Positions 1 through 36,712 of a DNA stretch of 36,712 nt are shown here, in pieces. The notes under the pieces were generated by a model. That model saw only the letters and a program-made list of their open reading frames with translations, had not been told where the DNA came from and made no database searches. Numbering within the stretch: the first letter of the stretch is position 1; each line of letters opens with the position of its first letter. A program made the translations under genes and the position numbers. Origin of the DNA: an uncultured Holophagaceae bacterium (GTDB lineage Bacteria; Acidobacteriota; Holophagae; Holophagales; Holophagaceae); assembly GCA_903937385.1 (NCBI GenBank), contig CAIZZF010000002.1, positions 1-36,712 of the forward strand, in the 5' to 3' direction.

Positions 1-235
1 GACGGCGGGGGGCAAGGCGCTGTACATGCACTGCCTGCCGGCGGACATCACGGACGTGAGCTGCAAGGCCGGGGAGGTCTCGGCGGACGTGTTCGAGCAG
101 TACCGGATTCCGACGTACCACGAGGCGAGCTACAAGCCGTTCGTGATCAGCGCCCTGATGTTCCTCACCCGCCTGAAGGACCCGGGCGCCAAGCTCGAGC
201 AGATCATCCAGCGCGCCCAGAGCCTCAGCCTGTAA
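1..235 (+). CDS. ygeW: YgeW knotted carbamoyltransferase, C-terminal end (5' part outside window)
   Basis: Only the last 77 codons are present, read from base 2 to the TAA at 233-235. The fragment carries the HCLPAD motif (His-Cys-Leu-Pro) that binds carbamoyl phosphate/substrate in the aspartate/ornithine carbamoyltransferase superfamily, followed by VSCKAGEVS, QYRIPTYHEAS and a PGAKLEQ tail, which match the C-terminus of E. coli YgeW closely. YgeW is a cytoplasmic knotted transcarbamylase; in purine breakdown it is thought to phosphorolyse a ureido compound to carbamoyl phosphate and an amine, although its natural substrate was long unknown. The carbamate kinase gene begins 36 bp downstream, which fits use of that carbamoyl phosphate for ATP. 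A second ygeW begins at 36586. The family call is strong; the substrate is inferred. Confidence 0.9.
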   Translation, partial: TAGGKALYMHCLPADITDVSCKAGEVSADVFEQYRIPTYHEASYKPFVISALMFLTRLKDPGAKLEQIIQRAQSLSL

Positions 236-271
236 ACCACTCTGAACCAAGACCCGCACTCAGGAGTCATG

Positions 272-1216
272 ATGTCCCGTACTGTCGTCATCGCCATTGG
301 TGGTAATTCCCTCATCTCCGACAACGATCACCGGAGTGTCTCGGATCAGTACAGCGCCGCCGCCGAGACCTGTGGGCACATCGCCGACATGTTCCAGGAG
401 TCGGACCTGCGCCTGGTGGTGACGCACGGCAACGGGCCCCAGGTGGGCTTCATCCTCCGGCGCTCGGAGCTGGCCGCCCCGGAGCTGCACATGGTTCCGC
501 TGGACAGCTGCGTCGCCGACACCCAGGGCGCCCTGGGCTACCACCTGCAGTGCGCTCTCTACAACGAGTTCAAGATGCGTGGCATCGGGCGCACTGCCGC
601 CACGGTGGTGACCCAGGTGCTGGTGGACGCGAAGGATCCCGCCTTCGCCCAGCCCAACAAGCCCATCGGCTCCTTCATGAGTGCCGAGCAGGCCCAGGTG
701 CACCGGGAGAAGGATGGCTGGGAGCTGGTGGAGGACTCCGGACGCGGCTGGCGCCGCGTGGTGGCCTCGCCCGCGCCTCAGCGTGTGCTGGAGATGGGTG
801 TGGTTAAGACCCTGCTCGATGCGGGCATCGTGGTGGTGGCCTGCGGCGGCGGCGGCATTGCGGTCGTGGAGGACCCGGGGGGGAAGATCCACGGCGCCGC
901 CGCCGTCATCGACAAGGACCTGGCCAGCAGCCTGCTCGCCCAGCAGCTGGGTGCGGACCTGCTGGTCATCTCCACTGCGGTGGAGAAGGTCTGCCTGGAC
1001 TTCGGCAAGCCCACCCAGCGCAGCCTGGACACCATCACCTTGGCGGAGGCCAAGCGCTACATCACGGAAGGCCACTTCAAGCCGGGCAGCATGCTGCCGA
1101 AGGTCCAGGCGGTCGTGGACTTCCTGGAGAAGGGCGGCAAGGAGGCCATCATCACCGACCCCTCGCACCTCGGGGCAGCGCTGGCCAACCGCGGCGGCAC
1201 GCACATCATCCCGTGA
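272..1216 (+). CDS. arcC: Carbamate kinase (first copy, YqeA/ArcC family)
   Basis: This 314-residue cytoplasmic kinase catalyses carbamoyl phosphate + ADP to carbamate + ATP, the energy-yielding last step after YgeW. Visible family features are the N-terminal VVIAIGGNSL nucleotide-binding strand and loop, THGNGPQVG, the GRGWRRVVASP segment, the glycine-rich CGGGGIAVV stretch, AAVIDKDLAS and DFGKPTQR, and the length is normal for the family. There are two in-frame ATGs, at 269 and 272. AGGAG at 262-266 lies only 2 bases from the first but 5 from the second, so 272 is preferred. The gene lies between ygeW and ygeX in a likely three-gene unit. It is homologous to, but clearly diverged from, the carbamate kinase at 23775. 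Confidence 0.93.
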   Translation: MSRTVVIAIGGNSLISDNDHRSVSDQYSAAAETCGHIADMFQESDLRLVVTHGNGPQVGFILRRSELAAPELHMVPLDSCVADTQGALGYHLQCALYNEFKMRGIGRTAATVVTQVLVDAKDPAFAQPNKPIGSFMSAEQAQVHREKDGWELVEDSGRGWRRVVASPAPQRVLEMGVVKTLLDAGIVVVACGGGGIAVVEDPGGKIHGAAAVIDKDLASSLLAQQLGADLLVISTAVEKVCLDFGKPTQRSLDTITLAEAKRYITEGHFKPGSMLPKVQAVVDFLEKGGKEAIITDPSHLGAALANRGGTHIIP

Positions 1217-1265
1217 TCCAGAACGACCCCACCCACCGGTCCGCCTCGTTGCCAGGAGATTGAAG

Positions 1266-2462
1266 ATGAACACCACGGTCGCCAAGGAATCCCTGCTGCT
1301 GCACAACCCGCTCTTTGATGCGGAGAAGCGCTGGCCCGCGCCGGATCCCGTGGTCTGGTCCTTCCACCGCCGCATGCCCGCCTACCTGGCGACCACGCTC
1401 TTCGACTGCCCGGACCTCGCCCGGCACTACGGGGTGGCCCGGGTGCTGGTGAAGGCGGAGACCCAGCGACTGGGCCTCCCCAGCTTCAAGATCCTCGGGG
1501 CCTCCTGGGCCACCTACCGGGCGCTCTGCGACCACCTCGGCTTCGAGCCCGAGCCCTGGCTGAACATCAACGACCTGGCCCGGCGCATCAGCTACCTCAA
1601 GCCCTTCGCCCTGGCTGCCGCCACCGATGGCAACCACGGCCGGGCCGTGGCCTTCATGGCCCGCCTGCTGGGCTTCCAGTGCCACATCTTCGTGCCCGCG
1701 GGCACAGTCCCGGCGCGCATCCACGCCATCCAGAACGAGGGCGCCGCGGTCACCGTGGTGGACGGGGACTACGATGCCGCCGTGGCGCGCTCCGCCGAAG
1801 AAGCCAGCGACCGCTGCCTGGTCATCTCTGACACCTCCTGGCCCGGCTACGACGTCACGCCGCGCCGCGTGGTGGAAGGCTACACCACCATCTACATGGA
1901 GATCGAACAGGCCCTGCGCTCGGCGGGTCTCCCGGACCCGGACGTGGTCGTGGTACCTGTCGGCGTTGGCGCGTTCATGAGCGCCACCGTGAGCTACTTC
2001 CGCAGCCGTCCCTGGCAGGGGGCCCTCGTGGGCGTCGAGCCCGCGGACGCCAACTGTGTTCAGGCCTCCGCCGCGAAGGGTGAGATGACGGCCGTGCCCG
2101 GCCCCCACTCCTCCATCATGGTCGGCCTCAACTGCGGCCTGCCGTCCCCCGTGGCGTGGCCCCGGGTGTCCACCGGCGTCGATTGGATGATCTCCATCGG
2201 GGACCACCGCGCCCGGCAGGGCATGCGGGAGCTGGCAGGTGCCGGCGTCGTCGCCGGCGAGACCGGGGCCGCGGCCCTGGGCGCCCTGGCCGCCCTGCAT
2301 GAGGACGCCTCCACGGCCGAGTTCCGGGAGCGGGGCCTTCTGGGTCCCGACAAGACCCTGCTGCTCATCGTCACGGAAGGTGCCACGGACCGTGGCAACT
2401 ACCAGGCCGTCGTGGGTCGTCCGCCCGAAGAGGTCGGGACCATCCTAAGGCTCGCGCACTAA
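1266..2462 (+). CDS. ygeX: Diaminopropionate ammonia-lyase
   Basis: This 398-residue PLP enzyme (fold type II) converts 2,3-diaminopropionate to pyruvate and two ammonia. The length equals that of E. coli YgeX. The PLP lysine is K75 in PSFKILGAS, the phosphate/substrate loop is TDGNHGRA, and a glycine-rich VPVGVGAF follows. The frame is open much further upstream, but the start is the ATG at 1266, with AGGAG at 1254-1258 and a protein starting MNTTVAKES that aligns with the family. It follows carbamate kinase by 49 bp and is closed by a terminator. In anaerobic purine degradation it is considered the step that sends ring-derived diaminopropionate into pyruvate. The family call is very strong; the pathway role follows from context. 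Confidence 0.95.
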   Translation: MNTTVAKESLLLHNPLFDAEKRWPAPDPVVWSFHRRMPAYLATTLFDCPDLARHYGVARVLVKAETQRLGLPSFKILGASWATYRALCDHLGFEPEPWLNINDLARRISYLKPFALAAATDGNHGRAVAFMARLLGFQCHIFVPAGTVPARIHAIQNEGAAVTVVDGDYDAAVARSAEEASDRCLVISDTSWPGYDVTPRRVVEGYTTIYMEIEQALRSAGLPDPDVVVVPVGVGAFMSATVSYFRSRPWQGALVGVEPADANCVQASAAKGEMTAVPGPHSSIMVGLNCGLPSPVAWPRVSTGVDWMISIGDHRARQGMRELAGAGVVAGETGAAALGALAALHEDASTAEFRERGLLGPDKTLLLIVTEGATDRGNYQAVVGRPPEEVGTILRLAH

Positions 2463-2521: not shown

Positions 2522-3004
2522 CTAGTAGCGGATCTTGTCTGGCTTCGCGTCCCAGGCTTGGAAGACCGTCAGGGCTTCGTCCCGCAGGAGGTTCCGGGTC
2601 GGCAGGCTGCGGTCGCTGATCGGCAGAGCCACCTCCCGGTAGAGCCACTGGTCGTCGAACTGGATGGCGGCGGCGTCCGCCTGATTGTTGGCGTACCAGA
2701 CCCGGTCCAGCCGCGCCCAGTAGATGGCCGAGAGGCACATGGGGCAGGGCTCGCAGCTGGTGTAGATCTCGCAGCCCTTCAGCTCGAAGGTGCCCAGGCG
2801 GGAGCAGGCCTCGCGGATGGCCACCACCTCGGCGTGGGCGGTGGGGTCCTGGGTGGAGGTGACACGGTTCCAGCCCTCGGCGACGATCAGCCCCTCCCGG
2901 ACCACCACGGCGCCGAAGGGGCCGCCCTCGCCGGCCTCCATGTGGATGCGGGAGAGCTCGATGGCGCGGCGCATGAAGGCCTTTGGATCAAGGTCCAGGG
3001 TCAT
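2522..3004 (-). CDS. guaD: Guanine deaminase (cytidine-deaminase fold)
   Basis: This 160-residue zinc enzyme should hydrolyse guanine to xanthine and ammonia in the cytoplasm, feeding the xanthine dehydrogenases nearby. It resembles B. subtilis GuaD (about 156 aa): GGPFGAVVV near the start, the HAEVVAI zinc/proton-shuttle motif, SCEPCPMCLSAIYWAR with the two zinc cysteines, and a C-terminal FQAW...IRY tail. An upstream in-frame ATG at 3079 would add 25 residues, but GGAGGA (complement of 3015-3020) lies 10 bases before the ATG at 3004 and a promoter fits just before it, so 3004 is chosen. It is the only minus-strand gene in the window. Another CDA-fold deaminase is possible, but the tail strongly favours GuaD. 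Confidence 0.9.
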   Translation of the reverse strand: MTLDLDPKAFMRRAIELSRIHMEAGEGGPFGAVVVREGLIVAEGWNRVTSTQDPTAHAEVVAIREACSRLGTFELKGCEIYTSCEPCPMCLSAIYWARLDRVWYANNQADAAAIQFDDQWLYREVALPISDRSLPTRNLLRDEALTVFQAWDAKPDKIRY

Positions 3005-3036
3005 GGGAAGGCGGTCCTCCAAGGGGGTTGGGGTGA

Positions 3037-3066
3037 ATTCTAGCGAAAAACGGGATGCATCCACAA
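3037..3066 (-). promoter_or_regulatory. Sigma70-type promoter for guaD
   Basis: On the minus strand a TTGTGG -35 (3061-3066) and a TAGAAT -10 (3037-3042, five of six consensus bases) are separated by 18 bases. Transcription would begin near 3030, giving a short leader that holds the GGAGGA ribosome site. A TGGTGCCA motif lies 5 bp upstream of the -35. Confidence 0.55.
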
Positions 3067-3113
3067 ATTTTGGTGCCATTTACGTATTTCTGAACCCGCC
3101 AGGGCCCGATGGT

Positions 3114-8192: not shown

Positions 8193-10757
8193 ATGGCCAC
8201 GCTCCAGATCAACGGCCGGGAAGTTGTCACGTCGAAGGAAGGGAACCTCCTGGACTTCCTCCGGGACGAACTGAACCTCACCTCGGTGAAGAACGGTTGC
8301 TCGGAAGGAGCCTGCGGCGCCTGCATGGTGCTGGTGGACGGCAAGGCCTCCCGCGCCTGCCTGTTCAACACGGCGAAGCTCGAGGGCAAGCGCGTCGTCA
8401 CGCTGGAGGGTCTCTCTCCGCGGGAGAAGGATGTCTACGCCTGGTCCTTCGCCCAGGCTGGCGCGGTCCAGTGCGGCTTCTGCATCCCGGGCATGGTGAT
8501 CAGCGCCAAAGGCCTGCTGGATGCCAATCCGGATCCCCGCCCCGAGGAAGTGACCAAGGCCCTGGCGCAGAACATGTGCCGCTGCACGGGCTATGTGAAG
8601 ATCGAAAAGGCGGTGCTGGAGTCCGCGCGGCTCCTGCGCGAGAACCTCCCGGTGCCCGAGGAAGCGGCCACCCCGCTCAGCGTGGGCGCCCGCATCTGCC
8701 GGACCGACGCCCGGGAGAAGGTCCTGGGCACGGGCCTCTATGTGGACGACATGAAGCGTCCGGGCATGCTGCACGGCGCCGTGCTGCGCACGCCCAAGCC
8801 CCGGGTGAAGGTGCTGGGCATCGATACCACTGAAGCCCTGGCCATGCCGGGCGTGAAGCTCATCCTCACCGCCGCGGATGTTCCGGGCGAGCGGCACCAG
8901 GGCCACATCATTCATGACTGGCCCGCGCTGATCGCCGTGGGCGAGGAGACCCGCTACGTGGGCGACGCCCTCGCCCTGGTGGCGGCCGAGACCCGCGCCG
9001 AGGCCAAGGCGGCCCTGGCCAAGATCAAGCTCGACTACGAGGTGCTGCCGCCCCAGGTGGATCCCCGCCGCGCGCAGGACGAAGGCGCCCCCCGGCTGCA
9101 TCCCAAGGGCAACCTGCTGGCCCGGACCGTGCTCAAGCGTGGCGATGTGGAGGCCGCCTTCGCCAGGGCCGCGCACATCATCCGCCAGACCTTCACCACC
9201 CCGGAGACCGAGCACGCCTTCATGGAGCCCGAGAGCGCCCTGGCGGTGCCCGAGGCTGACGGCACCCTGACGGTCTACACCGGCACCCAGAGCATCTACG
9301 ACGACCACAAGGGCATCATCGGCGTGCTGGGCGTGGGCCCCGAGCAGGTCAAGGTGGTCAGCGCCTACGTGGGCGGTGGCTTCGGCGGCAAGGAGGACCT
9401 CATCGTCCAGCACCATGCCGCGCTCCTCGCCAATGCCGCCGGCGTGCCCGTGAAGGTGACCCTGGGTCGGCAGGAGAGCCTGAAGGTGCATCCGAAGCGC
9501 CATGCCTTCGAGATGGAATATGAGGTGGCTGCCGACGCGCAGGGTCGCGTCACGGCCATGAAGGCCTACCTGCTGGAAGACACTGGCGCCTACGCCTCCC
9601 TGGGAGGCCCCGTGTTGCAGCGCGCCTGCACCCACGCCGCCGGTCCCTACAAGATCCCGAACGTCGACATCGTCGGCGAGGCGGTCTATACCAACAACCC
9701 CCCCGGCGGCGCCTACCGGGGCTTCGGCGTCACCCAGTCCTGCTTCGCCATGGAGTCCTGCCTGACGCTGCTCGCCAAGGAGGTGGGCCTCACCCCCTGG
9801 CAGATCCGCTACCTCAATGCCGTGGAGCCCGGCGACGTGCTGCCCAACGGCCAGATCACCGATGCCGGCACGGCCCTCAAGGAGACCCTCCTGGCCGTGA
9901 AGGACCTGTGCGAGGCCCGGCCTGACGCGGGCATCGCCTGCGCCATGAAGAACGCGGGCATCGGCGTGGGCCTCTCGGATGTGGGCCGCGTGCGGATCCG
10001 CGTCCAGGGCGGCCAGGCCGTCGTCTACACCAGCGCCGCCTGCATCGGCCAGGGCCTGGCCTCGGTGCTCATGCAGTTCGTGGCCGACGCCTCGGGGCTG
10101 GCCTGGGGCGAGATCGAGGTGGCCGTGCCGGACACCTCCACTTCGCCCAACGGCGGCACGACCACCGCCTCCCGGCAGACGGTCTTCAACGGCGAGGCCG
10201 CCCGCCTGGCCGCGACGGACCTGGCCGTGGATCTCAAGACCCACAGCCTGGCGGAGCTCGAAGGCCGCGAATACTACCGCGAGTACTCGGGCATCACGGA
10301 CCCGATGGGTTCCGACAAGCCCAACCCCGTGAGCCATGTGTCCTATTCCTACGCCACCCAGGTCGTCCTGCTGAACGCCGAGGGTCGGCTGGAGCGGGTG
10401 GTGGCGGCCCATGACGTGGGCCGGGCGGTGAACCCCAACCAGGTGGAGGCCCAGATCGAGGGCGGCGTGGTCATGGCCTTGGGCTACGCCCTCACGGAGG
10501 ACTTCCCGCTCAAGGACGGCGAGGTCCTCGCGAAGTACGGCACCCTCGGCCTCTTCAAGGCCACCCAGGTGCCGCCCATTGTGCCCCTCATCATCGAGAA
10601 GAACCTGGATCCCCTGGCCTACGGCGCCAAAGGCATCGGCGAGATCGTCAGCATTCCCACGGCGCCAGCCGTGGCAGGCGCCTACTTCTACCGGGACGGC
10701 CAGTTCCGCACCAGCCTGCCCCTGCTGGGGACGCCCTACAGCCGGAAGAAGGCATGA
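8193..10757 (+). CDS. Fused FeS-molybdenum hydroxylase 1 (selenium-dependent xanthine dehydrogenase type)
   Basis: This 854-residue protein joins a two-[2Fe-2S] unit to a molybdopterin domain and lacks the FAD domain. Cluster one uses C36, C41, C44 and C56; cluster two uses C94, C97, C129 and C131 (QCGFCIPG ... CRCTGY). The molybdenum part starts near residue 165 with VGARICRTDAREKVLG and has GGGFGGKED and the catalytic glutamate E817 in GAKGIGE. Length and layout match the selenium-dependent xanthine dehydrogenase/EF2570 group, in which labile Se replaces the Mo sulfido ligand. This is supported by the maturation genes that follow, starting with a 4-base ATGA overlap. Oxidation of xanthine or another purine is inferred; electrons must leave through a separate flavoprotein. 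Confidence 0.88.
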   Translation: MATLQINGREVVTSKEGNLLDFLRDELNLTSVKNGCSEGACGACMVLVDGKASRACLFNTAKLEGKRVVTLEGLSPREKDVYAWSFAQAGAVQCGFCIPGMVISAKGLLDANPDPRPEEVTKALAQNMCRCTGYVKIEKAVLESARLLRENLPVPEEAATPLSVGARICRTDAREKVLGTGLYVDDMKRPGMLHGAVLRTPKPRVKVLGIDTTEALAMPGVKLILTAADVPGERHQGHIIHDWPALIAVGEETRYVGDALALVAAETRAEAKAALAKIKLDYEVLPPQVDPRRAQDEGAPRLHPKGNLLARTVLKRGDVEAAFARAAHIIRQTFTTPETEHAFMEPESALAVPEADGTLTVYTGTQSIYDDHKGIIGVLGVGPEQVKVVSAYVGGGFGGKEDLIVQHHAALLANAAGVPVKVTLGRQESLKVHPKRHAFEMEYEVAADAQGRVTAMKAYLLEDTGAYASLGGPVLQRACTHAAGPYKIPNVDIVGEAVYTNNPPGGAYRGFGVTQSCFAMESCLTLLAKEVGLTPWQIRYLNAVEPGDVLPNGQITDAGTALKETLLAVKDLCEARPDAGIACAMKNAGIGVGLSDVGRVRIRVQGGQAVVYTSAACIGQGLASVLMQFVADASGLAWGEIEVAVPDTSTSPNGGTTTASRQTVFNGEAARLAATDLAVDLKTHSLAELEGREYYREYSGITDPMGSDKPNPVSHVSYSYATQVVLLNAEGRLERVVAAHDVGRAVNPNQVEAQIEGGVVMALGYALTEDFPLKDGEVLAKYGTLGLFKATQVPPIVPLIIEKNLDPLAYGAKGIGEIVSIPTAPAVAGAYFYRDGQFRTSLPLLGTPYSRKKA

Positions 10758-15506: not shown

Positions 15507-15752
15507 ATGCTCCTGCTCGCCACCTATGCCTCCAGCCACGCGGCCCTGCGGGCGGAAAGGGCCCTGAAGGCCGCAGGGGTTGCGGTTGAGCTGATCCCCG
15601 TTCCCCGGCAGGTCCAGAGCCTCTGCGGCTTCGGGCTGCTGGCCGAGGTTCCGGACGGCGCCCTGTTGCAAGAGAGCGGCGCGGAGAATCTGTGGCAAGT
15701 TGGAGAGCCCCAAGCGGGTCACTGGCGGAGGACCTATGAGCCTTATCTGTAG
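15507..15752 (+). CDS. DUF3343 small protein, putative Se/S carrier
   Basis: This 81-residue protein opens LLATYASSHAALRAERALK and continues ELIPVPRQVQSLCGFG, the pattern of DUF3343 proteins proposed to carry selenium or sulfur through the conserved cysteine (here in SLCGFG). It starts 2 bp after the selD stop and its 3' end overlaps yedF by 17 bases. The frame is open upstream, but the ATG at 15507 gives the standard DUF3343 start. The family function is not experimentally settled; the selD-DUF3343-yedF linkage supports a role in Se handling. Confidence 0.85.
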   Translation: MLLLATYASSHAALRAERALKAAGVAVELIPVPRQVQSLCGFGLLAEVPDGALLQESGAENLWQVGEPQAGHWRRTYEPYL

Positions 15753-27678: not shown

Positions 27679-29214
27679 ATGTCCAACCTCGACACGCGCA
27701 TCGCCGAACTGGCTGCCAAATACCTGCCCCTGGCGGCAGAGATGCTGAAGGAGGCCATCCGGATCCCCGCCGACTACGTTGAAAAGCCCGTGGACCAGGG
27801 GGGCGATCCCGCCTGCGGCACCTCCAACCACGAGTTCCCCCGCATCGACTACCTCCGGAAGAAGATTGTCGCGATCAAGGCCGTGCGGAAGGATGAGGAC
27901 GCCTACTTTGACGCCTTCGGCAACCTGGTATGGCGGGTGGAAGATCCCAATGACGGCATCCCCGCGGACCAGAAGAAGGTGGTCTACATCGACGGCCACA
28001 CCGACACCGTGAAGCCCCTCCGGGCCCAGTGGCTCCAGAACACCGGCGGCATCGACTGCTTCGACGGGGTCATCGACGCCACCAAGGTGAACAAGGCGTT
28101 CCTGAACAAGGAACTGGGCTATCTGCCCCCCGAGAGTGAGTGGAACCACCTCATCTTTGGCCGCGGCGCAGCCGACCAGCTGGGTGGTGTGATCTCCGCC
28201 GCCATCGCCACCAAGATCATGCTGGAGCTGGAGGCCGAGGGCGCCCTCAAGGGCGTGATCGTCTACTCCTATGCCACGGTCTGCGAAGAGGACAATGACG
28301 GCGCCGGCCCCATGTACCTCAACCGCGACGTCTTCCCCACCGCCGCGCCCGCCGTGGTGCCCGATGTGGTCATCCTCACCGACAGCTCCGGCTGCTCCAA
28401 GAACGGCGCCCTTGGCATCTACCGTGGCCAGCGCGGCCGCATGCAGATCGAGGTCACCGTCAAGGGCAAGTCCTGCCATGGCTCCATGCCCTGGGAAGGC
28501 AAGAACCCCCTGGAGTTCGGCGGCGCCATCCTGAAGGAAGCCGCGGACAAGTACGACCAGCGCATCGGCTTCCTGGACGACAAGTTCCTGGGCCACGGCA
28601 CCCGCACCGCCTCCTGGTCCAAGCTGGACACCCCCAGTGACTGCGCCGTGCCCGAGAAGTTCACCTTCCGCTTCGACCGTCGCCTGACCATCGGCGAGAC
28701 CCCCGAGCAGTCCTGCGCCGACGTCGAGGCCCTCGATGCCGTGGCCGTCGCCCGCAAGGCCGGCCTCACGGTGGAGGTCTCCATCCCCACCTACACCGAC
28801 GCCTCCTGGAAGGGCTACGTCCTGAACAACCCCCAGGTCTACCTGGGCTGGCTCACCCCCGAGGAGCACCCTGCGGTGCAGGCCGCGGTGGCCGCCTACC
28901 GGAACGTCATCTCCCCCAACGTGGACGGCAAGGTGGGCACCGGTGGCGTCCTCACCAAGGAGCCCCGCGTGGACCGCTGGGTCTTCAGCACCGACGGCGT
29001 GGGCTACCCCATCCCCAAGGATGCCAGCGTCCCCGGCGCGGCCAAGAAGCAGTGGGTGAACAACGGGGTCTACAAGCACCCCGCCATGATTGGCTTCGGC
29101 ACGGGCATCGAGCAGAACACCCACAAGATCGGTGAGTGCCTCGATGAGCGCGAGCTGCAGCACAGCGCGGCCTTCCTGGCCCGCTACCCCACCGTCTTCG
29201 CCGGTCTCCTCTAG
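27679..29214 (+). CDS. ygeY: YgeY-family M20 metallohydrolase
   Basis: This 511-residue M20 peptidase-family hydrolase carries metal and catalytic motifs DGHTDTVK (H107, D109), GRGAADQLGG and CEEDNDG (E203, E204), then YRGQRGRMQIEV and GKSCHGSMP of the lid domain and FDRRLTIGET, which correspond block by block to E. coli YgeY. It is some 100 residues longer than the E. coli protein (about 400), with insertions near residues 35-75 and 118-150. In anaerobic purine breakdown YgeY is needed for an amide or ureido hydrolysis after ring opening; the exact substrate is not readable from sequence. GGAG at 27667-27670 supports the start. It is 69 bp after the fused hydroxylase gene. Confidence 0.87.
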   Translation: MSNLDTRIAELAAKYLPLAAEMLKEAIRIPADYVEKPVDQGGDPACGTSNHEFPRIDYLRKKIVAIKAVRKDEDAYFDAFGNLVWRVEDPNDGIPADQKKVVYIDGHTDTVKPLRAQWLQNTGGIDCFDGVIDATKVNKAFLNKELGYLPPESEWNHLIFGRGAADQLGGVISAAIATKIMLELEAEGALKGVIVYSYATVCEEDNDGAGPMYLNRDVFPTAAPAVVPDVVILTDSSGCSKNGALGIYRGQRGRMQIEVTVKGKSCHGSMPWEGKNPLEFGGAILKEAADKYDQRIGFLDDKFLGHGTRTASWSKLDTPSDCAVPEKFTFRFDRRLTIGETPEQSCADVEALDAVAVARKAGLTVEVSIPTYTDASWKGYVLNNPQVYLGWLTPEEHPAVQAAVAAYRNVISPNVDGKVGTGGVLTKEPRVDRWVFSTDGVGYPIPKDASVPGAAKKQWVNNGVYKHPAMIGFGTGIEQNTHKIGECLDERELQHSAAFLARYPTVFAGLL

Positions 29215-29267: not shown

Positions 29268-32200
29268 ATGGAAAAAGCATTCCGATCCGCCTCGATCGAC
29301 CTGCTGGCCCGCTGGATCTTCAGCGAGCTCGACAGCCGGGACGCCGTCATGGGCATCCCCAAGGCGAACTTCCAGGTGCCCCATCCCAAGCTGGCCCGGG
29401 AGATGTTCGGGCACACCGTGGCCGCGCCCCTTGGCGTGGCTGCGGGCCCCCACACCCAGCTGGCCCAGAACATCGTGGCCAGCTGGCTGTGTGGCGCCCG
29501 CTTCATTGAGCTGAAGACGGTCCAGATCCTCGACGAGATCGAGGTGAGCCGGCCCTGCATCGACGCAGCGGACGAGACCTACAACTGCGAGTGGTCCCAG
29601 GAACTCAAGCTCGAGGAGTCCTTCACGGAGTACCTCAACGCCTGGGTGCTCATCCACGCCCTGGCCCACAAGCTGGGGCTCAAGGATCCAGGCACCCACT
29701 TCAGCATGAGTGTGGGCTACAACCTGGAAGGCATCCAGCACCCCCGGGTGCAGAAGTTCATCGCTGACATGCGCAATGCCGGCCCGGCCCTGGAGGCCGC
29801 CATCGAGGCCGTCGCCCAGGTCTATCCCGGCGTGCGCGACATCACGATCCCCACGGAACTCTCTAACCAGATCACCCTCTCCACCATGCACGGCTGCCCC
29901 CCGGCGGAGATCGAGCGCATCGCCCGGTTCCTGCTCACGGACATGGGCATGCACACCTGGGTGAAGCTGAACCCCACGCTGCTCGGTCCCGAGCGCCTGC
30001 GGGGACTGCTCAACGACACCCTCGGCTTCGACATCACCGTGCCTGACGAGGCCTTCGGCCACGACCCCAAGTGGCCGGACGCCATGGCCATGGTGAAGGC
30101 CCTGGCCCAGGTGGCCGAGGGCCGCCCGAACGGCTTCGGCCTCAAGCTCTCCAACACCCTCGAGGTGGTGAACCACCGGCCTGTGTTCCCCACCAACGAG
30201 AAGATGATGTACCTTTCCGGCCGGGCGCTGCATCCGCTCACGCTCACCCTGGCCACCCTCGTCACCGAGGAGCTCGACGGCCAGGTGCCTGTCAGCTTCT
30301 GCGGCGGGGCCGACGCCCGCAACTTCGCGGACCTGGTGGCAGCGGGCCTCGGCCCCGTCACCGTCTGCACGGATCTCCTCAAGCCCGGCGGCTACGCCCG
30401 CCTGCAGCAGTATCTGGTCAATCTGGAAGCGGCCATGGACGAGGTGGGCGCCGCCAGCCTCGACGCCTTCATCCAGGCACGCTCCGGCGGCCACGGCGCC
30501 CGCTTCAACCTGGCCAGCTACGGCGTGAAGGCCGTGGGCGATGACGTCTACGCCCGCCGCACCCGCCCCCTGGACTTCAAGGGCGACCGGCCCCTGGGCC
30601 ACTTCGACTGCATCGCCGCGCCCTGCGTGGACGCCTGTCCGACCCACCAGAACATCCCGGACTACCTGTGGCTGGTGGCCCACGGCAAGCCCACCGAGGC
30701 CATGGAGGTCATCCTCCGCACCAACCCCCAGCCGGGCATCACCGGCAGCGTCTGTGATCATCCCTGCACCGAGCGCTGTGTCCGCAACTTCTACGACGCA
30801 CCCCTGGCCATCCGCGAGATCAAGCGCTTCGCCTTCGAGAACGCCGGACCCCTGCCCGCCGAGGTGGCGGGCAAGCCCCTGGGCATCAAGGTGGCCATCG
30901 TCGGCGCAGGCCCCTCGGGCCTGTCGGCCGCCTACTACCTGGCCAAGATGGGCTTCGAGCCCGTCGTGTTCGAAGCCAAGCAGGAGCTGGGCGGCATGGT
31001 GGGGGGCCTGATCCCGGCCTACCGGCTGCCGAACGCCACCCTCGAGGGCGACCTGGTGCGCCTGCGCGAGCTGGGCGTCCAGATCCAGCTGGGCAAGGTG
31101 CTGGGTCGGGACTTCACCCTGGCCGAGCTGCGCCGGGACTACGGCTCCGTCTTCCTCGGTGTCGGCGCCCAGAAGGGCAAGCGCCTGGGGATTCCCGGCG
31201 AGGACACACCGGGCGTCATGGACGCCCTGGACTTCCTCGCGAAGGTGCGGGCCGGAACACCCATGGACCTGGGCCAGCGCATCCTGGTCATCGGCGCCGG
31301 CAACTCCGCCATGGACGCGGTCCGCTCCGCCATCCGGCTGGCGAAGGGCAGCGAGGTCACCATTGTCTATCGCCGCACCCGGGCCCAGATGCCCGCGGAT
31401 CCGGCCGAGGTCCACGACTGCGTGGAAGAGGGCATCCAGATCCGGGACCTACTGGCCCCGGCCTCGGTGGTCGCTGAGCACGGCCGGGTCAAGGCCCTGG
31501 CCTGCACCCGCATGCGCCTGGGCGAGCGGGACGCCTCCGGCCGGCCCCGGCCAGTGCCGGTGGAAGGCAGCGTCGAACTGGTCCCGGCAGACACCATCAT
31601 CTCGGCCATCAGCCAGGAGGCCGTGCTGGACTTCCTGGAGGGCCTCGAGATCAAGCGGAACGGCAGCGGCTACCTCGTGGTGGACCCCGCCACGGGCGCG
31701 ACCTCGGTGCCCGGCCTCTTCGCCGGGGGGGATGTGGTGCACGGCGCCTCCTCGGTGATCATGGCCATCGCGGATGGCCGGGCCGTGGCCGAAGCCATCG
31801 CCCTGCGCCACGGGGTGGAGCTCAAGGCCGAGCCCCTGCTCGAGAAGGGTGCTGCCGACGCGGCGCTCATGGAGAAGAAGGGCCGCCTGGTGGGGGCTCA
31901 GCAGGTGCCCGTGCTGCCCCTGACGGACCGGCACGGCTTCGACGAGGTGCTCAAGCCCTTCACGGCCGAGTCTGCCGCCAAGGAAGCCAGCCGCTGCCTG
32001 GACTGCGACGACCTCTGCAGCCTCTGTGTCACCGTCTGCCCCAACCGCGCCAACCTGGCCTACAGCCTGGAGCCCTTCAGCCTGCAGCTGCCCCTGCTCG
32101 TCCAGCGGCAGGGACAGCTGGTGGCCGAAGGCACCCGTCCCTTCGCCGTGACCCAGCGGGTCCAGACCCTCAACGTCGCGGACTTCTGCAACGAGTGCGG

Positions 32201-32570
32201 CAACTGCGACACCTTCTGTCCCGCCGCCGGCGCCCCCTACAAGGACAAGCCCCGGTTCTGGATCGACGAGGAGGGCTACCGCGAGGCCAGGGGTGATGCC
32301 TTCCGGCTGGTGCGCAAGCCCGCCGGTCGGGTCATCGAGGCCCGCCTGGCTGGGAAGACCTACCACCTGGAGGTCACCGGGGAGCTGGCCTCGTACCGCA
32401 GTGAGCAGGTGAGTGCGCGGTTCCGGACCGGAAACTGGGCCCTGGTGGACTGGACGGCCGCGGCAGTGCTGCCCGAGGGCACCGTGGTGGACCTCTCCCC
32501 CTGCCTCACGCTGGCCGCCCTGGTGCATGCGGAGTCGGTGCTGCCGCCGCTCCCCCAGCCCATTGGGTAA
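29268..32570 (+). CDS. ygfK: YgfK-family FeS-flavin oxidoreductase ('putative selenate reductase subunit')
   Basis: This 1100-residue protein has three parts: an N-terminal barrel resembling dihydroorotate/dihydropyrimidine dehydrogenases (about 1-430), a glutamate-synthase-like part starting with FeS cysteines at 448 onward (CIAAPCVDACPTHQ, CDHPCTERCVRN), and a C-terminal ferredoxin region (CDDLCSLCVTVCP near 910, CNECGNCDTFCP near 975). FAD and NAD(P)H sites are VAIVGAGPSGLSAA (about 543) and LVIGAGNSAMDA (about 673). E. coli YgfK is slightly shorter (1032 aa). The selenate-reductase name is historical; required for anaerobic purine use in gut bacteria, it may reduce a purine-derived ring or exchange electrons with the FAD-less hydroxylases (inference). 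ATG 29268 has GGGAG 9 bases upstream. Confidence 0.9.
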   Translation: MEKAFRSASIDLLARWIFSELDSRDAVMGIPKANFQVPHPKLAREMFGHTVAAPLGVAAGPHTQLAQNIVASWLCGARFIELKTVQILDEIEVSRPCIDAADETYNCEWSQELKLEESFTEYLNAWVLIHALAHKLGLKDPGTHFSMSVGYNLEGIQHPRVQKFIADMRNAGPALEAAIEAVAQVYPGVRDITIPTELSNQITLSTMHGCPPAEIERIARFLLTDMGMHTWVKLNPTLLGPERLRGLLNDTLGFDITVPDEAFGHDPKWPDAMAMVKALAQVAEGRPNGFGLKLSNTLEVVNHRPVFPTNEKMMYLSGRALHPLTLTLATLVTEELDGQVPVSFCGGADARNFADLVAAGLGPVTVCTDLLKPGGYARLQQYLVNLEAAMDEVGAASLDAFIQARSGGHGARFNLASYGVKAVGDDVYARRTRPLDFKGDRPLGHFDCIAAPCVDACPTHQNIPDYLWLVAHGKPTEAMEVILRTNPQPGITGSVCDHPCTERCVRNFYDAPLAIREIKRFAFENAGPLPAEVAGKPLGIKVAIVGAGPSGLSAAYYLAKMGFEPVVFEAKQELGGMVGGLIPAYRLPNATLEGDLVRLRELGVQIQLGKVLGRDFTLAELRRDYGSVFLGVGAQKGKRLGIPGEDTPGVMDALDFLAKVRAGTPMDLGQRILVIGAGNSAMDAVRSAIRLAKGSEVTIVYRRTRAQMPADPAEVHDCVEEGIQIRDLLAPASVVAEHGRVKALACTRMRLGERDASGRPRPVPVEGSVELVPADTIISAISQEAVLDFLEGLEIKRNGSGYLVVDPATGATSVPGLFAGGDVVHGASSVIMAIADGRAVAEAIALRHGVELKAEPLLEKGAADAALMEKKGRLVGAQQVPVLPLTDRHGFDEVLKPFTAESAAKEASRCLDCDDLCSLCVTVCPNRANLAYSLEPFSLQLPLLVQRQGQLVAEGTRPFAVTQRVQTLNVADFCNECGNCDTFCPAAGAPYKDKPRFWIDEEGYREARGDAFRLVRKPAGRVIEARLAGKTYHLEVTGELASYRSEQVSARFRTGNWALVDWTAAAVLPEGTVVDLSPCLTLAALVHAESVLPPLPQPIG

Positions 32571-33006: not shown

Positions 33007-33918
33007 ATGAAGAAGCTCACCCTCACCGCCCTGGCCCTCGTGGCCCTGGCCGCCGTCCCCGCCAGCGCCGCTGACTGGAGCGACACCTCCTTCCAGTACC
33101 GCACGGGCAACAAGTTCCAGGAACCGGCGAATCCCGAGTCCATGACCAAGCAGATCATGAACTTCACCCACGTGTCGGGCTACAGCCTGGGCAGCAACTT
33201 CTTCAGCGTGGACATGCTGACCTCCAGCACCACGGATCCCTCCAACAACGCCGGCACCTCCGCCGCCTTCCCCAAGCAGGGCGCTCATGAAGTCTATGTC
33301 GCCTACAAGCACAGCCTGAACCTGAGCAAGGTGCTCGACACCAAGATCGACTTCGGCCCCGTGCGCGGCATGAACTTCACCTTCGGCTTCGACTACGCCG
33401 CCAAGAACACCACCTTCGCCCCCGCCGTCTACAAGCTCATGGCCGGCCCCGAGTTCTCCTTCAAGGTGCCCGGCTTCCTGAACGTCGCCCTGCTCTACTA
33501 CAAGGAAAAGAACCACAACGCCTTCGGCGGCTTCAGCTCCTCCAAGGGCGGGACCACGGACGTGACCTTCGATCCCACCTACCAGATCGCCGCCGCCTGG
33601 GGCATCCCCGTGGCGCTGGGTTCCGTGAACACCTCCGTCAAGGGCTTCGCGACCTACACGGGCACCAAGGGCAAGGACGGCTCCGCCGTGCAGACCAAGC
33701 CTGAGACCCTGGCCCGCATCTACTGGATGGCCGACTTCAGCCCCCTCGTCGGCTGCAAGAAGGGCACCTGGCAGATCGGCCCCGGCTTCGAGTACTGGGA
33801 CAACAAGTTCGGTGATCCCACCTTCTCGTCCGTTGCTGCTGCCACCGCCTCCGGCACCGGCGGCGGCGTGAACCCCAAGACCACCTGTGTCATGGCTGCC
33901 ATCGAAGTCCACTTCTAG
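33007..33918 (+). CDS. Tsx/OmpK-like outer-membrane channel, probable nucleoside/purine porin
   Basis: This 303-residue exported protein has a signal peptide (MKKL, hydrophobic core, cleavage near ASAAD at about 22) and ends in the aromatic EVHF, typical of outer-membrane beta-barrels. The start of the mature part, with DTSFQYRTGNKFQEP and HVSGYSLGSNFFSVDML, resembles the Tsx/OmpK nucleoside-channel family, and alternating hydrophobic strands continue to the end. The start has AAGGAG at 32995-33000. A nucleoside or purine pore would supply the BMP importer encoded at 3403-8105. The barrel class is well supported; the Tsx assignment is moderate. The gene is closed by a strong terminator. Confidence 0.7.
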   Translation: MKKLTLTALALVALAAVPASAADWSDTSFQYRTGNKFQEPANPESMTKQIMNFTHVSGYSLGSNFFSVDMLTSSTTDPSNNAGTSAAFPKQGAHEVYVAYKHSLNLSKVLDTKIDFGPVRGMNFTFGFDYAAKNTTFAPAVYKLMAGPEFSFKVPGFLNVALLYYKEKNHNAFGGFSSSKGGTTDVTFDPTYQIAAAWGIPVALGSVNTSVKGFATYTGTKGKDGSAVQTKPETLARIYWMADFSPLVGCKKGTWQIGPGFEYWDNKFGDPTFSSVAAATASGTGGGVNPKTTCVMAAIEVHF

Positions 33919-33931
33919 ACCGCACCACCCA

Positions 33932-33968: not shown

Positions 33969-33985
33969 ATCTCTAAGGAAGCACC

Positions 33986-35200
33986 ATGACCGTCTTCACC
34001 TATCGGTGCACGGACTGCGGACGCGCCTTTGCGCGGGACGAAGTCCGTTACCTCTGCCCCGTCTGCGGCCCGGCCTACCGGCCGGGAATTCCCTTGCTGG
34101 GCGTGCTGGAAGCGGTCTTCGACTACGAAAGCATCGGCCGTACGTTCAACCGTACGAAGCCCGATTGGAGCCTGTTCTGCGCCGTGGAGCCGGAATTCCA
34201 TCCCCCCATCCAGGTGGGCAACACGCCCCTGGGCCGGGTGGACCGCCTCGGCGCCGAGCTGGGCCTGCCCAGCCTGTGGGTGAAGAACGACGGCCTGAAT
34301 CCCAGCGGCAGCCTGAAGGACCGGGCTTCCTTCCTGGTGGTGGCCGAAGCCCGCCGCCTGGGCATCGACCTGGTCGTCGCTGCCTCCACGGGCAACGCCG
34401 CCTCGGCCCTGGCCGCGGTGTGCGCGACCACGGACACCAAGGCGCTCATCTTCGTCCCCGAGAAGGCCCCCAAGGCCAAGCTGGTGCAGATGGTGCTCTA
34501 CGGCGCGAAAGTGGTCCCCGTGAAGGGCACCTACGACGACGCCTTCGCCCTCTCGCTGGAGTACACCGCCCAGCGCGGCGGCCTGAACCGCAACACCGCC
34601 TATCATCCGCTCACCATCGAGGGCAAGAAGACCGCAGGCCTGGAGATCTGGGCCCAGCTGGGCTACCAGGTGCCTGAGGCGATCCTCATCTCCGTGGGCG
34701 ACGGCGTCATCCTCGGCGGCGTGCACAAGGCCTTCGTGGACCTGCAGCGGGCTGGCCTCATCGACCGCCTGCCGCGCCTCATCGGGGTGCAGGCCGAGAC
34801 CTCCGACGCCATCCACCGCTATGTGGAGACCGGCGTCTACAGTGACGCGGCCAACCCCACCACCCGGGCTGACTCGATCTCCGTCACCTGCCCCAGCAAC
34901 GCCCACGGCGCCCGGCGCGCGGTGCTGGACAGCCAGGGGCTGACCCTCACGGTGACCGACGACGAGATCCTCGAGGCCCAGGCTCTGCTCGCGGGCCGCA
35001 GCGGCATCTTCACGGAACCGGCCGGTGCCACGGCCCTGGCGGGTCTGGTCAAGCTGCAGGCGGGCCCGAACCGCCTGACCGGCTCGGGTCCGGTGGTCAT
35101 CCTCGCCACGGGCCACGGCCTCAAGGACGTGGAAGCGCCCCTCTCCCGCATCAGCATTCCCGCCGCCGTCGCGCCCGTGCTGGCTTCGCTGAGCCTGTGA
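33986..35200 (+). CDS. Threonine-synthase-like PLP lyase of uncertain substrate
   Basis: This 404-residue fold type II PLP enzyme has an N-terminal zinc-ribbon (C8, C11, C24, C27) as in many threonine synthases, PLP lysine K111 in NPSGSLKDRAS, and the phosphate-loop region ASTGNAASALAA. Similarity supports threonine synthase or a close relative, and it could simply make threonine. However, no hom or thrB gene is near, and the gene is coupled to hyuA by a GTGA overlap, so a role in eliminating ammonia or urea from a diaminopropionate- or ureido-type intermediate, alongside YgeX, is plausible. Upstream AAGGAAG supports the start. It follows the porin terminator without a clear promoter. Confidence 0.8.
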   Translation: MTVFTYRCTDCGRAFARDEVRYLCPVCGPAYRPGIPLLGVLEAVFDYESIGRTFNRTKPDWSLFCAVEPEFHPPIQVGNTPLGRVDRLGAELGLPSLWVKNDGLNPSGSLKDRASFLVVAEARRLGIDLVVAASTGNAASALAAVCATTDTKALIFVPEKAPKAKLVQMVLYGAKVVPVKGTYDDAFALSLEYTAQRGGLNRNTAYHPLTIEGKKTAGLEIWAQLGYQVPEAILISVGDGVILGGVHKAFVDLQRAGLIDRLPRLIGVQAETSDAIHRYVETGVYSDAANPTTRADSISVTCPSNAHGARRAVLDSQGLTLTVTDDEILEAQALLAGRSGIFTEPAGATALAGLVKLQAGPNRLTGSGPVVILATGHGLKDVEAPLSRISIPAAVAPVLASLSL

Positions 35201-36564
35201 AGACCCTCGTCCGCAACGGCCGGGTGGCCCTCGACGGCAGTCTCCAGTCCCTGGACGTGCTGGTCGAAGGCGAGCGCATCGCGGCCGTGGGTCGTGTGGA
35301 GGTGGCCTCCGCCGATCGGGTGGTGGACGCCCAGGGCTGCTACGTCCTGCCGGGCTTCATCGACTTCCACACCCACGTGGACGACCAGATCGGACCCTAC
35401 TACCTGGCCGACACCTACGAGTCCGCCACCCGGGTCGGCCTGGAGAACGGCATCACCACGCTCTGCACCTTCGTCACCCAGGAGCCGGGCGACACCCTGC
35501 TGCGCGGCCTGGAGCGGGCCCGGGCCAAGGCCGAGGGGCGCACCCACGCCGATGTGCTCTGGCACCTGACGCCCACCACCTTCAGCCCCGGGGACCTCGC
35601 GACCCTGCGGACCCTGCAGGCCGGCGGCTACCGCACCCTGAAGCTCTACACCACCTACAAGGCTGCGGGCATCTTCGCCAGCTACGACCTCATTGAGGAG
35701 CTCTTCCAGAGCCTCGGCGACCTGGGCGGCTGCTTCCTGGTGCACTGCGAGGACGACGAGACCATCGCCGCCGTGGACACCCGCGGGCTGGATCTGAGCA
35801 AGGCCTTCACGCACACCCTCCTGCGGCCCGAGGCCGCCGAGGTGGTGGCCATCCAGCGGGTGGTGGACCTGGCCCTGAAGCATCGGGCCGCCCTGCACGT
35901 GGTGCACGTCTCAACCCTTGAGGGCGCTCAGGTCCTGGTGGCGAACCGCGCCAAGGGCGACCTCAGCTTCGAGACCTGCCCCCAGTACCTGTTCCTGGAC
36001 GAGTCCTGGCTGGCCCGCGAAGACGGCCACCGCTGGCTCTGCTCCCCGCCCCTGCGCGGCCACCGGGCGCCCTTCCTGGAGCTCATGCGCCAGGGTGCCG
36101 CCGATGTGCTCGCCACAGACCACTGCCCCTTCTGTGCCGCCCACAAGGACGCCTGGGACGGCAAGGACCTGCGGCAGGTACCCAACGGCATGCCCGGGCT
36201 GGGTTCCCTCCCGCACACCGCCTGGAAGCTCTGGGAGGGCGACCCCGATCGCGCAGCCCTGGGCCTCGCCACGCAGCTCTCCCTGAACCCTGCCCGCCGG
36301 GCTGGTGTCGGGGACCGCAAGGGCGCCCTGCGGCCGGGCCTGGACGCGGACCTCGTGGTGCTGGACCCCAACGGCCCCGCCCGGCCCCTGCGCTCCTCCG
36401 CTTCCGACGCCTACGAAGCCTTCCCCGGCTTCACCTCCACCCTGGCCTTCCGCGAGGTGCTCCTGCGCGGTGAGTCCCGGGTGCGGGACGGCCGGCTCAC
36501 CCTGCCCCAGACACCCGGCGGCCGCCTCCTCCAACCCTCTCCCGTTTCGCTCTCTCTGTCCTGA
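35197..36564 (+). CDS. hyuA: HyuA/YgeZ dihydropyrimidinase-type amidohydrolase
   Basis: This 455-residue zinc amidohydrolase of the D-hydantoinase/dihydropyrimidinase family opens cyclic ureides. The metal ligands are H58 and H60 in DFHTHVD, carboxylated K149 in TLKLYTTY, the His of VHCEDDE and of HVVHVST, and the Asp of ATDHCPF. The length matches E. coli YgeZ/HyuA (about 461). The start is a GTG overlapping the stop of the PLP-enzyme gene (GTGA), so translation is coupled. Its likely role is to hydrolyse a hydantoin- or dihydropyrimidine-like ring derived from purine; the true substrate is not shown by sequence. ygeW follows after 21 bp. Confidence 0.9.
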   Translation: MKTLVRNGRVALDGSLQSLDVLVEGERIAAVGRVEVASADRVVDAQGCYVLPGFIDFHTHVDDQIGPYYLADTYESATRVGLENGITTLCTFVTQEPGDTLLRGLERARAKAEGRTHADVLWHLTPTTFSPGDLATLRTLQAGGYRTLKLYTTYKAAGIFASYDLIEELFQSLGDLGGCFLVHCEDDETIAAVDTRGLDLSKAFTHTLLRPEAAEVVAIQRVVDLALKHRAALHVVHVSTLEGAQVLVANRAKGDLSFETCPQYLFLDESWLAREDGHRWLCSPPLRGHRAPFLELMRQGAADVLATDHCPFCAAHKDAWDGKDLRQVPNGMPGLGSLPHTAWKLWEGDPDRAALGLATQLSLNPARRAGVGDRKGALRPGLDADLVVLDPNGPARPLRSSASDAYEAFPGFTSTLAFREVLLRGESRVRDGRLTLPQTPGGRLLQPSPVSLSLS

Positions 36565-36585
36565 CCCTTCCTCAAGGAGCCCCAA

Positions 36586-36712
36586 ATGCCGACCCTCGCC
36601 GAGAACCTGAAAGCCTTCCAGGCCCTCAAGACCGACCTCTACCAGAAGGATTTCCTGCTGACGTGGCAGCACCCTGAGGAGGAGCTGCGGGCGATCGTGA
36701 CGCTGGCGGACA
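36586..36712 (+). CDS. ygeW: Second YgeW knotted carbamoyltransferase, N-terminal end (cut by window edge)
   Basis: The ATG at 36586 has AAGGAG at 36574-36579 (6-base spacing), and 42 codons are open to the window edge. The segment KDFLLTWQHPEEELRAIV matches the N-terminus of E. coli YgeW (KDFLLTWEQTPDEL...), which also begins with a short amphipathic helix. It follows hyuA by 21 bp, as expected in a purine or ureide breakdown operon. With the C-terminal ygeW fragment at the left edge, this gives two ygeW genes unless the sequenced molecule is circular with the window spanning nearly all of it. The identity is well supported despite the short length. Confidence 0.82.
   Translation, partial: MPTLAENLKAFQALKTDLYQKDFLLTWQHPEEELRAIVTLAD

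Follow-up and report, generated by a model that had tools for sequence, protein, structure and literature searches.

The window analyzed here is the whole of a 36,712-base contig (C2) from the genome of an uncultured Holophagaceae bacterium of the phylum Acidobacteriota (30 contigs, 3.68 Mb, 97.8% complete; G000 in the genome comparisons), and its genes probably form a purine-catabolic island that runs the reductive urate route. Its left half holds, in order, the end of a ygeW gene, arcC, ygeX, guaD on the minus strand, the ATPase, two permeases and BMP-type binding protein of an ATP-binding cassette (ABC) importer, a selenium-dependent xanthine dehydrogenase (XDH) and an XdhC-like factor. The middle holds yqeC, yqeB, a desulfurase, selD, yedF, xdhABC, a second trio of molybdenum (Mo), iron-sulfur and FAD subunits and a second arcC, and the right end holds a second TIGR03311-type enzyme, a YgeY-like M20 enzyme, ygfK, a Tsx-like barrel, a ThrC-like enzyme, hyuA and the start of another ygeW. 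The initial annotation had listed a Tsx-like protein, a BMP importer, GuaD, four Mo hydroxylases, a selenium set, ygeX, ygeY, ygfK, hyuA, ygeW and two carbamate kinases, all of which are present; to these we add the ThrC-like pyridoxal phosphate (PLP) enzyme in the window. Outside it, neighbouring contigs encode two NCS2-family permeases, one of them at the end of contig C28, and the genome also has a CysK-like PLP enzyme and a second BMP/ABC importer. The data show gene content and order, the joining of ssnA to the window through relatives and the co-occurrence of genes across genomes.

In the published pathway, as PMC12507026 sets it out, urate is converted to yanthine by XdhD, then to ureidomethylhydantoin by YgfK and SsnA and to diureidopropionate by HyuA, after which YgeW yields a monoureido amino acid, YgeY diaminopropionate and YgeX pyruvate. 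Each of these steps has a candidate gene in G000. The core genes within the window, together with the ThrC-like gene, are the following:

2..235, plus strand: ygeW copy 1, C-terminal end (knotted carbamoyltransferase), an open frame at the contig edge; 59% identical to the E. coli YgeW C-terminus
269..1216, plus strand: carbamate kinase 1 (arcC/yqeA type); PRK12352 409 bits, over cut-off; 48% identical to E. coli YqeA
1266..2462, plus strand: YgeX-type diaminopropionate ammonia-lyase (DAPAL) family protein; NF006058 309 bits, cut-off 276; 35% identical to E. coli YgeX
23775..24722, plus strand: carbamate kinase 2; PRK12352 326 bits, over cut-off; TIGR00746 357.5 bits against 358.25
27679..29214, plus strand: YgeY-like M20 hydrolase, divergent, 511 amino acids; 35% identical over 351 amino acids to E. 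coli YgeY
29268..32570, plus strand: YgfK, NAD(P)H-dependent purine-ring reductase; TIGR03315 899 bits, cut-off 835; 37% identical to E. coli YgfK
33986..35200, plus strand: ThrC-like PLP enzyme, proposed stand-in for YgeX; TIGR00260 176.6 bits
35197..36564, plus strand: HyuA-type dihydropyrimidinase/hydantoinase; TIGR02033 263 bits, under cut-off 393; 31% identical to E. coli HyuA
36586..36712, plus strand: ygeW copy 2, N-terminal end; in relatives a CysK-like PLP enzyme and then ssnA lie downstream

Both carbamate kinases narrowly missed TIGR00746. The YgeX-type protein fell under the cut-offs of TIGR03528 and TIGR01747; its best solved match was the DAPAL 4d9g, and it keeps the Lys, Asp and Asp positions that we take to be catalytic. 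The YgeY-like protein scored 196 and 175 bits against the YgeY models (cut-offs of about 321); in an alignment with E. coli and E. faecalis YgeY its motif positions HxD, D, EE and H, presumably the M20 metal ligands, are conserved. Only fragments of ygeW, one per end, lie in the window; the complete ortholog at a related locus, L045, is 66% identical to E. coli YgeW. The gene ssnA, which the initial annotation gave as the only core member missing, is encoded in the genome on contig C16 (69654-70970, minus strand; TIGR03314 476 bits, cut-off 455.5), which reads toward its edge SsnA, the CysK-like enzyme and then a ygeW end at the contig edge. A true absence of ssnA was thus rejected, and since it lies two genes past the right end of the window, the locus is more complete than the annotation held.

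The layout, which had been called unusually complete, is not peculiar to this genome. The genes stand in the same order on the 36,613-bp contig C3 of genome G041, whose two ends likewise fall inside ygeW, so that we rejected the window as a one-off assembly of parts. The synteny check proposed by the annotation gave a positive answer: the core genes are found in this order again at related loci of Holophagaceae and Thermoanaerobaculia, and YgfK scored over its cut-off in 23 of the 77 genomes of the window's family. Related clusters occur in Acidobacteriota metagenome-assembled genomes with titles naming bog, fen, sediment and groundwater, several of them cut by contig ends, and a 23-kb stretch of a groundwater locus (L034) contains every core gene but YgeX and carbamate kinase. 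Near ssnA in the other Acidobacteriota loci L099, L100, L102 and L103 there is only a partial YgfK match, and beside ssnA in L100 (6890-9376) we observed an 828-amino-acid protein whose layout (Fer4_20, Pyr_redox_2, C-terminal 4Fe-4S) resembles that of dihydropyrimidine dehydrogenase, perhaps another type of yanthine reductase.

The most distinctive feature of the system concerns its last steps. We searched 297 Acidobacteriota genomes at least 85% complete with four queries, assuming that the same set of genomes was drawn each time, with which the genome handles agree. The thresholds were E 1e-60 for SsnA and for the ThrC-like enzyme, E 1e-30 for the CysK-like enzyme and E 1e-20 for the DAPAL/YgeX family (TIGR01747), and more divergent members under these thresholds stay uncounted. 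SsnA was found in 40 genomes. The ThrC-like enzyme was present in 36, of which 34 also had SsnA; in 22 of these 34 the two genes shared a contig, always within 20 kb. The CysK-like enzyme was found in 50 genomes, 34 of them with SsnA, and lay on the same contig within 20 kb in 25 of the 34. The DAPAL/YgeX family was detected in 33 genomes, only 9 of which had SsnA, and five of these nine are among the six SsnA genomes that have no ThrC-like match. The 40 SsnA genomes divide into 30 with the ThrC-like enzyme and no DAPAL, four with both (G000, G041, G047 and G108), five with DAPAL only and one (G289) with neither (Fisher p 0.001). They carry 21 family labels, 18 of which include the ThrC-like enzyme. 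We read the ThrC-like enzyme as a putative stand-in for YgeX in the SsnA genomes of this phylum. The duplicated catabolic arms that the initial annotation stressed are part of the picture, but what sets the locus apart is the extra pair of PLP enzymes together with the scarcity of YgeX-family matches in SsnA genomes of Acidobacteriota.

The CysK-like gene is linked to ssnA by position as well. Among 15 loci with a complete ygeW, it follows directly in 12, and 9 of these 12 continue into ssnA; in two of the remaining three the contig stops, and L034 has ssnA elsewhere. The three loci, of the 15, in which the CysK-like gene does not come next are two Rhodoplanes records and L038.

The ThrC-like protein resembles threonine synthase (ThrC) in having a fold type II PLP core and N-terminal CxxC pairs, and differs from it in its tie to SsnA loci and at positions equivalent to N154, S155 and R160 of Thermus ThrS. 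These residues, which we take to bind the phosphate of O-phosphohomoserine, are N, S and R in four aligned solved bacterial synthases, and in 35 aligned members of the ThrC-like family, each at least 38% identical to the window protein, the first is T in 32, the second A in 30 or G in 5, and the third T in 31 and Arg in none. The ThrC-like protein is therefore probably not threonine synthase in function, as far as these residues indicate. The idea that it serves the genus as its general threonine synthase is likewise unsupported, since no match at E 1e-60 was found in two single-contig genomes of the same genus, G011 and G036. Two weaker ThrC-like matches inspected in G000 resemble IlvA and TrpB, and the other threonine synthase of this genome was not found.

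The CysK-like protein is about 485-506 amino acids long, and its PLP lysine, STGN loop and GIGDK motif are invariant in all 12 sequences of a 12-row alignment (a 36-row set was dropped because it contained several loci of the same gene). Its predicted structure (pLDDT 76) is closest to beta-substituted alanine synthases, the best Foldseek matches being S-methylcysteine synthase and cysteine synthases; it differs from these in its extra N- and C-terminal parts, its ssnA linkage and an identity of about 28% at best. Beta-substituted alanine synthases use C3-substituted alanines, and diaminopropionate and albizziin are such compounds. An action of the CysK-like enzyme on either would be chemistry by analogy, which is not evidence.

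We consider it somewhat probable that the ThrC-like enzyme acts on the amino-acid intermediates of the pathway; for the CysK-like enzyme the same role is possible, and we suggest it with appreciable doubt. Several observations pull in the other direction. The ThrC-like protein scores 176.6 bits with the curated NCBI model for threonine synthase, TIGR00260, whose cut-off is 167.1 (it is below the cut-offs of the other ThrC models listed), the co-occurrence p-values ignore shared ancestry, the CysK-like enzyme is found in 16 genomes that have no SsnA match and is missing from 6 SsnA genomes, and G000 itself also holds a YgeX-type enzyme, so that the ThrC-like enzyme need not be a replacement there. 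The two enzymes could instead be biosynthetic, supplying threonine, cysteine or serine or assimilating nitrogen or sulfur from pathway products, and their closest solved relatives are indeed threonine synthases and cysteine or beta-substituted alanine synthases. The TIGR00260 match lowered our estimate for the catabolic role of the ThrC-like enzyme and for a distinct pathway, and raised it for biosynthesis. We nevertheless regard a biosynthetic role as unlikely: SsnA accompanies the ThrC-like enzyme in all but two of its genomes, while 257 of the 297 genomes have no SsnA match, and both the replaced phosphate-site positions and the missing gene in G011 and G036 argue against it. In the two exceptions, G124 and G215, the ThrC-like and CysK-like genes lie at most 2 kb apart. 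In the survey that PMC12507026 describes, 'YgeX' in ssnA neighbourhoods was scored by Pfam PF00291. Both new enzymes belong to this family, and the survey would therefore be blind to the difference between YgeX, ThrC-like and CysK-like proteins.

The oxidoreductases of the window comprise four Mo hydroxylases, with a selenium-cofactor set between the first and the second:

8193..10757, plus strand: Mo hydroxylase 1, selenium-dependent XDH with fused 2Fe-2S and Mo domains; TIGR03311 1297 bits, cut-off 830
10754..11794, plus strand: XdhC-like Mo-cofactor maturation factor; NF045664 237 bits, under cut-off 350
11791..12558, plus strand: YqeC selenium-cofactor protein; TIGR03172 188 bits, over cut-off
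12555..13361, plus strand: YqeB selenium-dependent Mo-cofactor protein; TIGR03309 336 bits, over cut-off; 268 amino acids from the MSLLH methionine
13358..14488, plus strand: cysteine desulfurase/selenocysteine-lyase-like protein; TIGR01977 346 bits, under cut-off 377
14485..15504, plus strand: SelD selenophosphate synthase; TIGR00476 358 bits, over cut-off
15736..16359, plus strand: YedF selenium metabolism protein; TIGR03527 177 bits, over cut-off
16478-18793, ~18786-19667 and 19657-20178, plus strand: Mo hydroxylase 2, XdhABC; NF007426, NF007427 and NF043084 over cut-off
20203..23778, plus strand: Mo hydroxylase 3, PucD-like Mo subunit, 2Fe-2S subunit and FAD subunit; best models all below cut-off
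25003..27609, plus strand: Mo hydroxylase 4, ygfK-linked, proposed urate reductase (XdhD/XdhAC role); TIGR03311 857 bits, cut-off 830

XdhA, XdhB and XdhC are 49, 42 and 53% identical to their E. coli counterparts. A homolog of the fourth enzyme (25003-27609) recurs in 23 of 37 ygfK loci (L010-L046), and contig ends truncate several of the 14 that lack one; because of this recurrence we chose the fourth enzyme as the best candidate for the urate reductase step. It has no adjacent FAD-subunit gene, and the same is true of C. difficile XdhD as described in PMC12507026.

A selenium cofactor is probably present in at least two of the Mo enzymes, and its synthesis would fall to SelD, YedF, the desulfurase, YqeB, YqeC and the XdhC-like factor. 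The selenium-dependent XDH model TIGR03311 was exceeded by two of the four hydroxylases, by one of them barely, and SelD, YqeB and YqeC, all over cut-off, stand beside them. Profiles for SelA (TIGR00474) and MnmH (TIGR03167), which gave matches in E. coli as a control, found none in the 97.8% complete G000 genome; SelB and tRNA-Sec were not searched for. This is the orphan-SelD trait, the setting that led to the prediction of selenium-dependent molybdenum hydroxylases (Haft and Self 2008, PMC2276186). The likeness extends to selD, yedF, the desulfurase, yqeB and yqeC beside a selenium-dependent XDH with no SelA or MnmH match, and the difference lies in the host, here Acidobacteriota, whereas the orphan genomes named in the consulted part of that paper are E. 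faecalis, H. marismortui and C. phytofermentans. The G+C content of the selenium set (window 10000-16000) is 71-74%, against 64-71% elsewhere in the window (64-74% overall). No tRNA or Rfam match was found within the window, an Rfam scan of six flanking or related loci gave tRNAs only and no RNA regulator, and a scan of the window for sigma-54 sites gave none at one mismatch or fewer.

The assignment of the locus to urate has its own weak points. Identity to the E. coli counterparts is no more than 31-37% for HyuA, the YgeY-like protein, YgfK and SsnA, and the first two of these score under equivalog cut-offs. The cut-offs of the closest models are likewise missed by the YgeX-type protein (where the models are stricter), by the XdhC-like factor and the desulfurase, and by the trio at 20203-23778. 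In addition, E606 of E. coli XdhD, which Li et al. (PMC12507026) describe as a possible substrate-orienting residue, sits in an insertion that all four Mo subunits here lack, so that this test is uninformative. The locus might instead serve other nitrogen heterocycles such as nicotinate or pyrimidines; the trio has no assigned substrate, the fourth hydroxylase barely exceeds TIGR03311 and HyuA scores as a generic dihydropyrimidinase. We hold this to be improbable, since YgfK, SsnA, YgeW and the YgeX- and YgeY-type enzymes, together with GuaD, XdhABC and the NCS2-family permeases, are, among the pathways known to us, best fitted by the urate route as PMC12507026 presents it.

The remaining genes of the window would serve purine uptake and deamination:

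2522..3079, minus strand: GuaD-type guanine deaminase, cytidine-deaminase fold; closest solved relatives are the guanine deaminases 1wkq/1tiy, 172 bits
3403..8105, plus strand: BMP-type ABC importer, with ATPase 3403-4956, permeases 4946-6013 and 6023-6955 and PnrA/BMP-like binding protein 7002-8105
33007..33918, plus strand: Tsx-like 12-stranded outer-membrane channel; AlphaFold2 and Foldseek, best match 1tlw

The Tsx-like protein had no Pfam or NCBIfam match, and its assignment as a Tsx-type barrel comes from a predicted structure: the AlphaFold2 model (12 strands, mean pLDDT 77, alignment of 19 sequences) had as its best PDB match Tsx with thymidine, 1tlw (Foldseek E 7.6e-7, TMt 0.65). Compared with L015 and L045, a block at window positions 33050-34250, running from just within tsx into the ThrC-like gene, shows 67-85% DNA identity, against mostly 86-99% per 100 bases in its flanks; L016 and L017 show the opposite, with tsx at 91-95% and ygfK at 84%. 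This looks like a swap of tsx alleles, in which recombination would have replaced a surface protein.

The placement of the window in the genome follows from its ends. At its left end it shares 141 identical bases with the end of C16, and at its right end another 141 with the end of C28, which terminates in an NCS2-family permease and then the ygeW start; an exact 141-bp overlap is also found between contigs C3 and C14 of G041. Such overlaps would be the expected residue of a 141-mer assembly graph at a two-copy repeat, and ssnA is absent from the window because the near-identical ygeW copies broke the assembly. L045 reads without interruption through the C-terminal part of ygfK, tsx, the ThrC-like gene, hyuA, ygeW, the CysK-like gene, ssnA, a second XdhC-like gene and a second BMP gene, and its genes are 94-100% identical to those of G000 except for tsx (63%). 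Since contiguous relatives show this order, we conclude that ygeW, the CysK-like gene and ssnA follow the window, and C28 is placed before it by elimination only. That C2 is a 37-kb circle running from ygeW end to ygeW end, or a misassembly, and not a chromosomal stretch adjoining ssnA is highly improbable, for although a circle closed via one ygeW would yield two ends inside ygeW with exact 141-bp overlaps, hyuA, ygeW, the CysK-like gene and ssnA share one contig in G033 (L091, judged from its length to be the contig also listed as L011), the single-contig genome G065 (L093), L045 and L026, and the sharing at both junctions and in G041 fits a two-copy repeat. Within G000 the two ygeW copies show 3 differences in 138 sites and within G041 they show 0 in 138, the latter comparison falling inside the 141-base overlap of its two contigs, whereas 7-10 sites differ between the two genomes, a pattern that suggests concerted evolution (gene conversion) or repeated duplication. 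As direct repeats 37 kb apart, the copies could permit loss or amplification of the island.

Taken together, the genes fit the published reductive urate pathway (PMC12507026), and the initial view of purine use from the outer membrane to ATP stands to that extent, with the function itself, and each reaction in it, inferred from sequence. The Tsx-like channel and the BMP/ABC importer would admit purines, as would the NCS2-family permeases of the neighbouring contigs, and guanine, hypoxanthine and xanthine would be brought to urate by GuaD and the Xdh enzymes. The ygfK-linked hydroxylase at 25003-27609 would reduce urate to yanthine, YgfK with SsnA would dearomatise and open the ring, and HyuA would open the hydantoin. 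YgeW may then release one ureido group by phosphorolysis as carbamoyl phosphate, from which the carbamate kinases would make ATP, while the YgeY-like enzyme would remove the other. The route would end with a PLP lyase giving pyruvate and ammonia, in the Acidobacteriota variant usually the ThrC-like enzyme rather than YgeX. The CysK-like enzyme may provide a second PLP step on diaminopropionate or ureidoalanine, where it might racemise the intermediate, eliminate the ureido group directly or swap it to give a useful amino acid.

Beyond the phylum, the alphaproteobacterium Rhodoplanes serenus (L027) encodes a ThrC-like protein that is only distantly related (83 bits), a CysK-like protein (49%), an SsnA-like protein below cut-off and a Mo hydroxylase, with the YgeY-like protein, YgfK, YgeW and carbamate kinase in divergent orientation. 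Since strain DSM 18633 of this species carries the cluster, an isolate with a related cluster exists. SsnA was matched on nine plasmid records, three of which were inspected. Weighing against a strict link to the route, CysK-like proteins (42-43%) were found on two plasmid records, both rhizobial, with no SsnA or YgfK match in the 25 kb read. On one of them (L128, a Bosea vaviloviae plasmid), a DAPAL-like frame lies within 6 kb of the CysK-like gene, and an M20 hydrolase and a RidA protein are also present, again with no SsnA or YgfK match; the frame is not in the gene table and is possibly a pseudogene, and the set perhaps breaks down another diaminopropionate compound.

In an IQ-TREE phylogeny of SsnA with 46 rows, in which Acidobacteriota is the one phylum sampled broadly and six of the 40 SsnA genomes (G088, G091, G158, G289, G316 and G320) were not included, E. 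coli joined G273, from the class of the window genome (100/100), inside a 12-row set of Acidobacteriota and Rhodoplanes (99/98), and E. faecalis, Collinsella and Cetobacterium joined G083, from another family (100/99). The two host-associated groups are therefore separated by Acidobacteriota branches, in a tree with a very long outgroup branch, 12 open inner branches and odd composition in several rows, including E. faecalis, Collinsella and Cetobacterium. This topology bears on whether the gut pathway is ancient. We tentatively raise the possibility, which we regard as doubtful, that Acidobacteriota and Rhodoplanes have a distinct reductive urate pathway ending in a two-enzyme PLP module, in which the ThrC-like enzyme would replace YgeX and the CysK-like enzyme would act on beta-ureidoalanine or diaminopropionate, and of which the gut YgeX versions would be later offshoots from an old environmental pathway.

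The enzymes of the reductive pathway were resolved in gut bacteria only in 2023-2025, and a commentary does not decide whether the pathway arose long ago or as an adaptation to the gut, nor in what order and with what stereochemistry the ureido groups depart (PMC12990295). The environmental clusters, with the SsnA of two host-associated groups joining separate Acidobacteriota sequences, make the question of age testable, and two uncharacterised PLP enzymes bound to SsnA bear on the second question. The pathway itself was already known; its novelty here lies in the lineage that hosts it, in the union of transport and selenium sets and, most of all, in the PLP end-module. Among the papers listed in our literature searches we recognised none on the pathway in Holophagaceae or Geothrix, or on these PLP enzymes in it, and we do not claim their absence from print.

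The clusters of Enterococcus faecalis (plasmid pCF3A-343-2) and Cetobacterium somerae resemble the present one in having ssnA with YgeY, HydA and a purine permease, and in E. faecalis also ygfK-ygeW-arcC. They differ in that both use dpaL (YgeX); the E. faecalis, Cetobacterium and E. coli stretches contain YgeX but lack a distinct ThrC-like or CysK-like gene of the present type, and the Collinsella stretch has none of the three. With the E. coli MG1655 cluster (xdhABC-ygeWXY-hyuA-yqeA ... ygfK-ssnA-ygfM-xdhD, as given in PMC12507026) the present locus shares YgfK, SsnA, HyuA, YgeW and carbamate kinase, as well as a YgeY-type hydrolase, a YgeX-type lyase, XdhABC, YqeB and YqeC. By contrast, no mocA was found among the window genes scanned (best score 104 bits, cut-off 186), the urate reductase candidate is a fused TIGR03311-type enzyme with no adjacent YgfM-like gene, the guanine deaminase is of another fold, the YgeY-like protein is divergent, and the locus adds two extra PLP enzymes, a Tsx-like channel with a BMP importer, and SelD and YedF within it.

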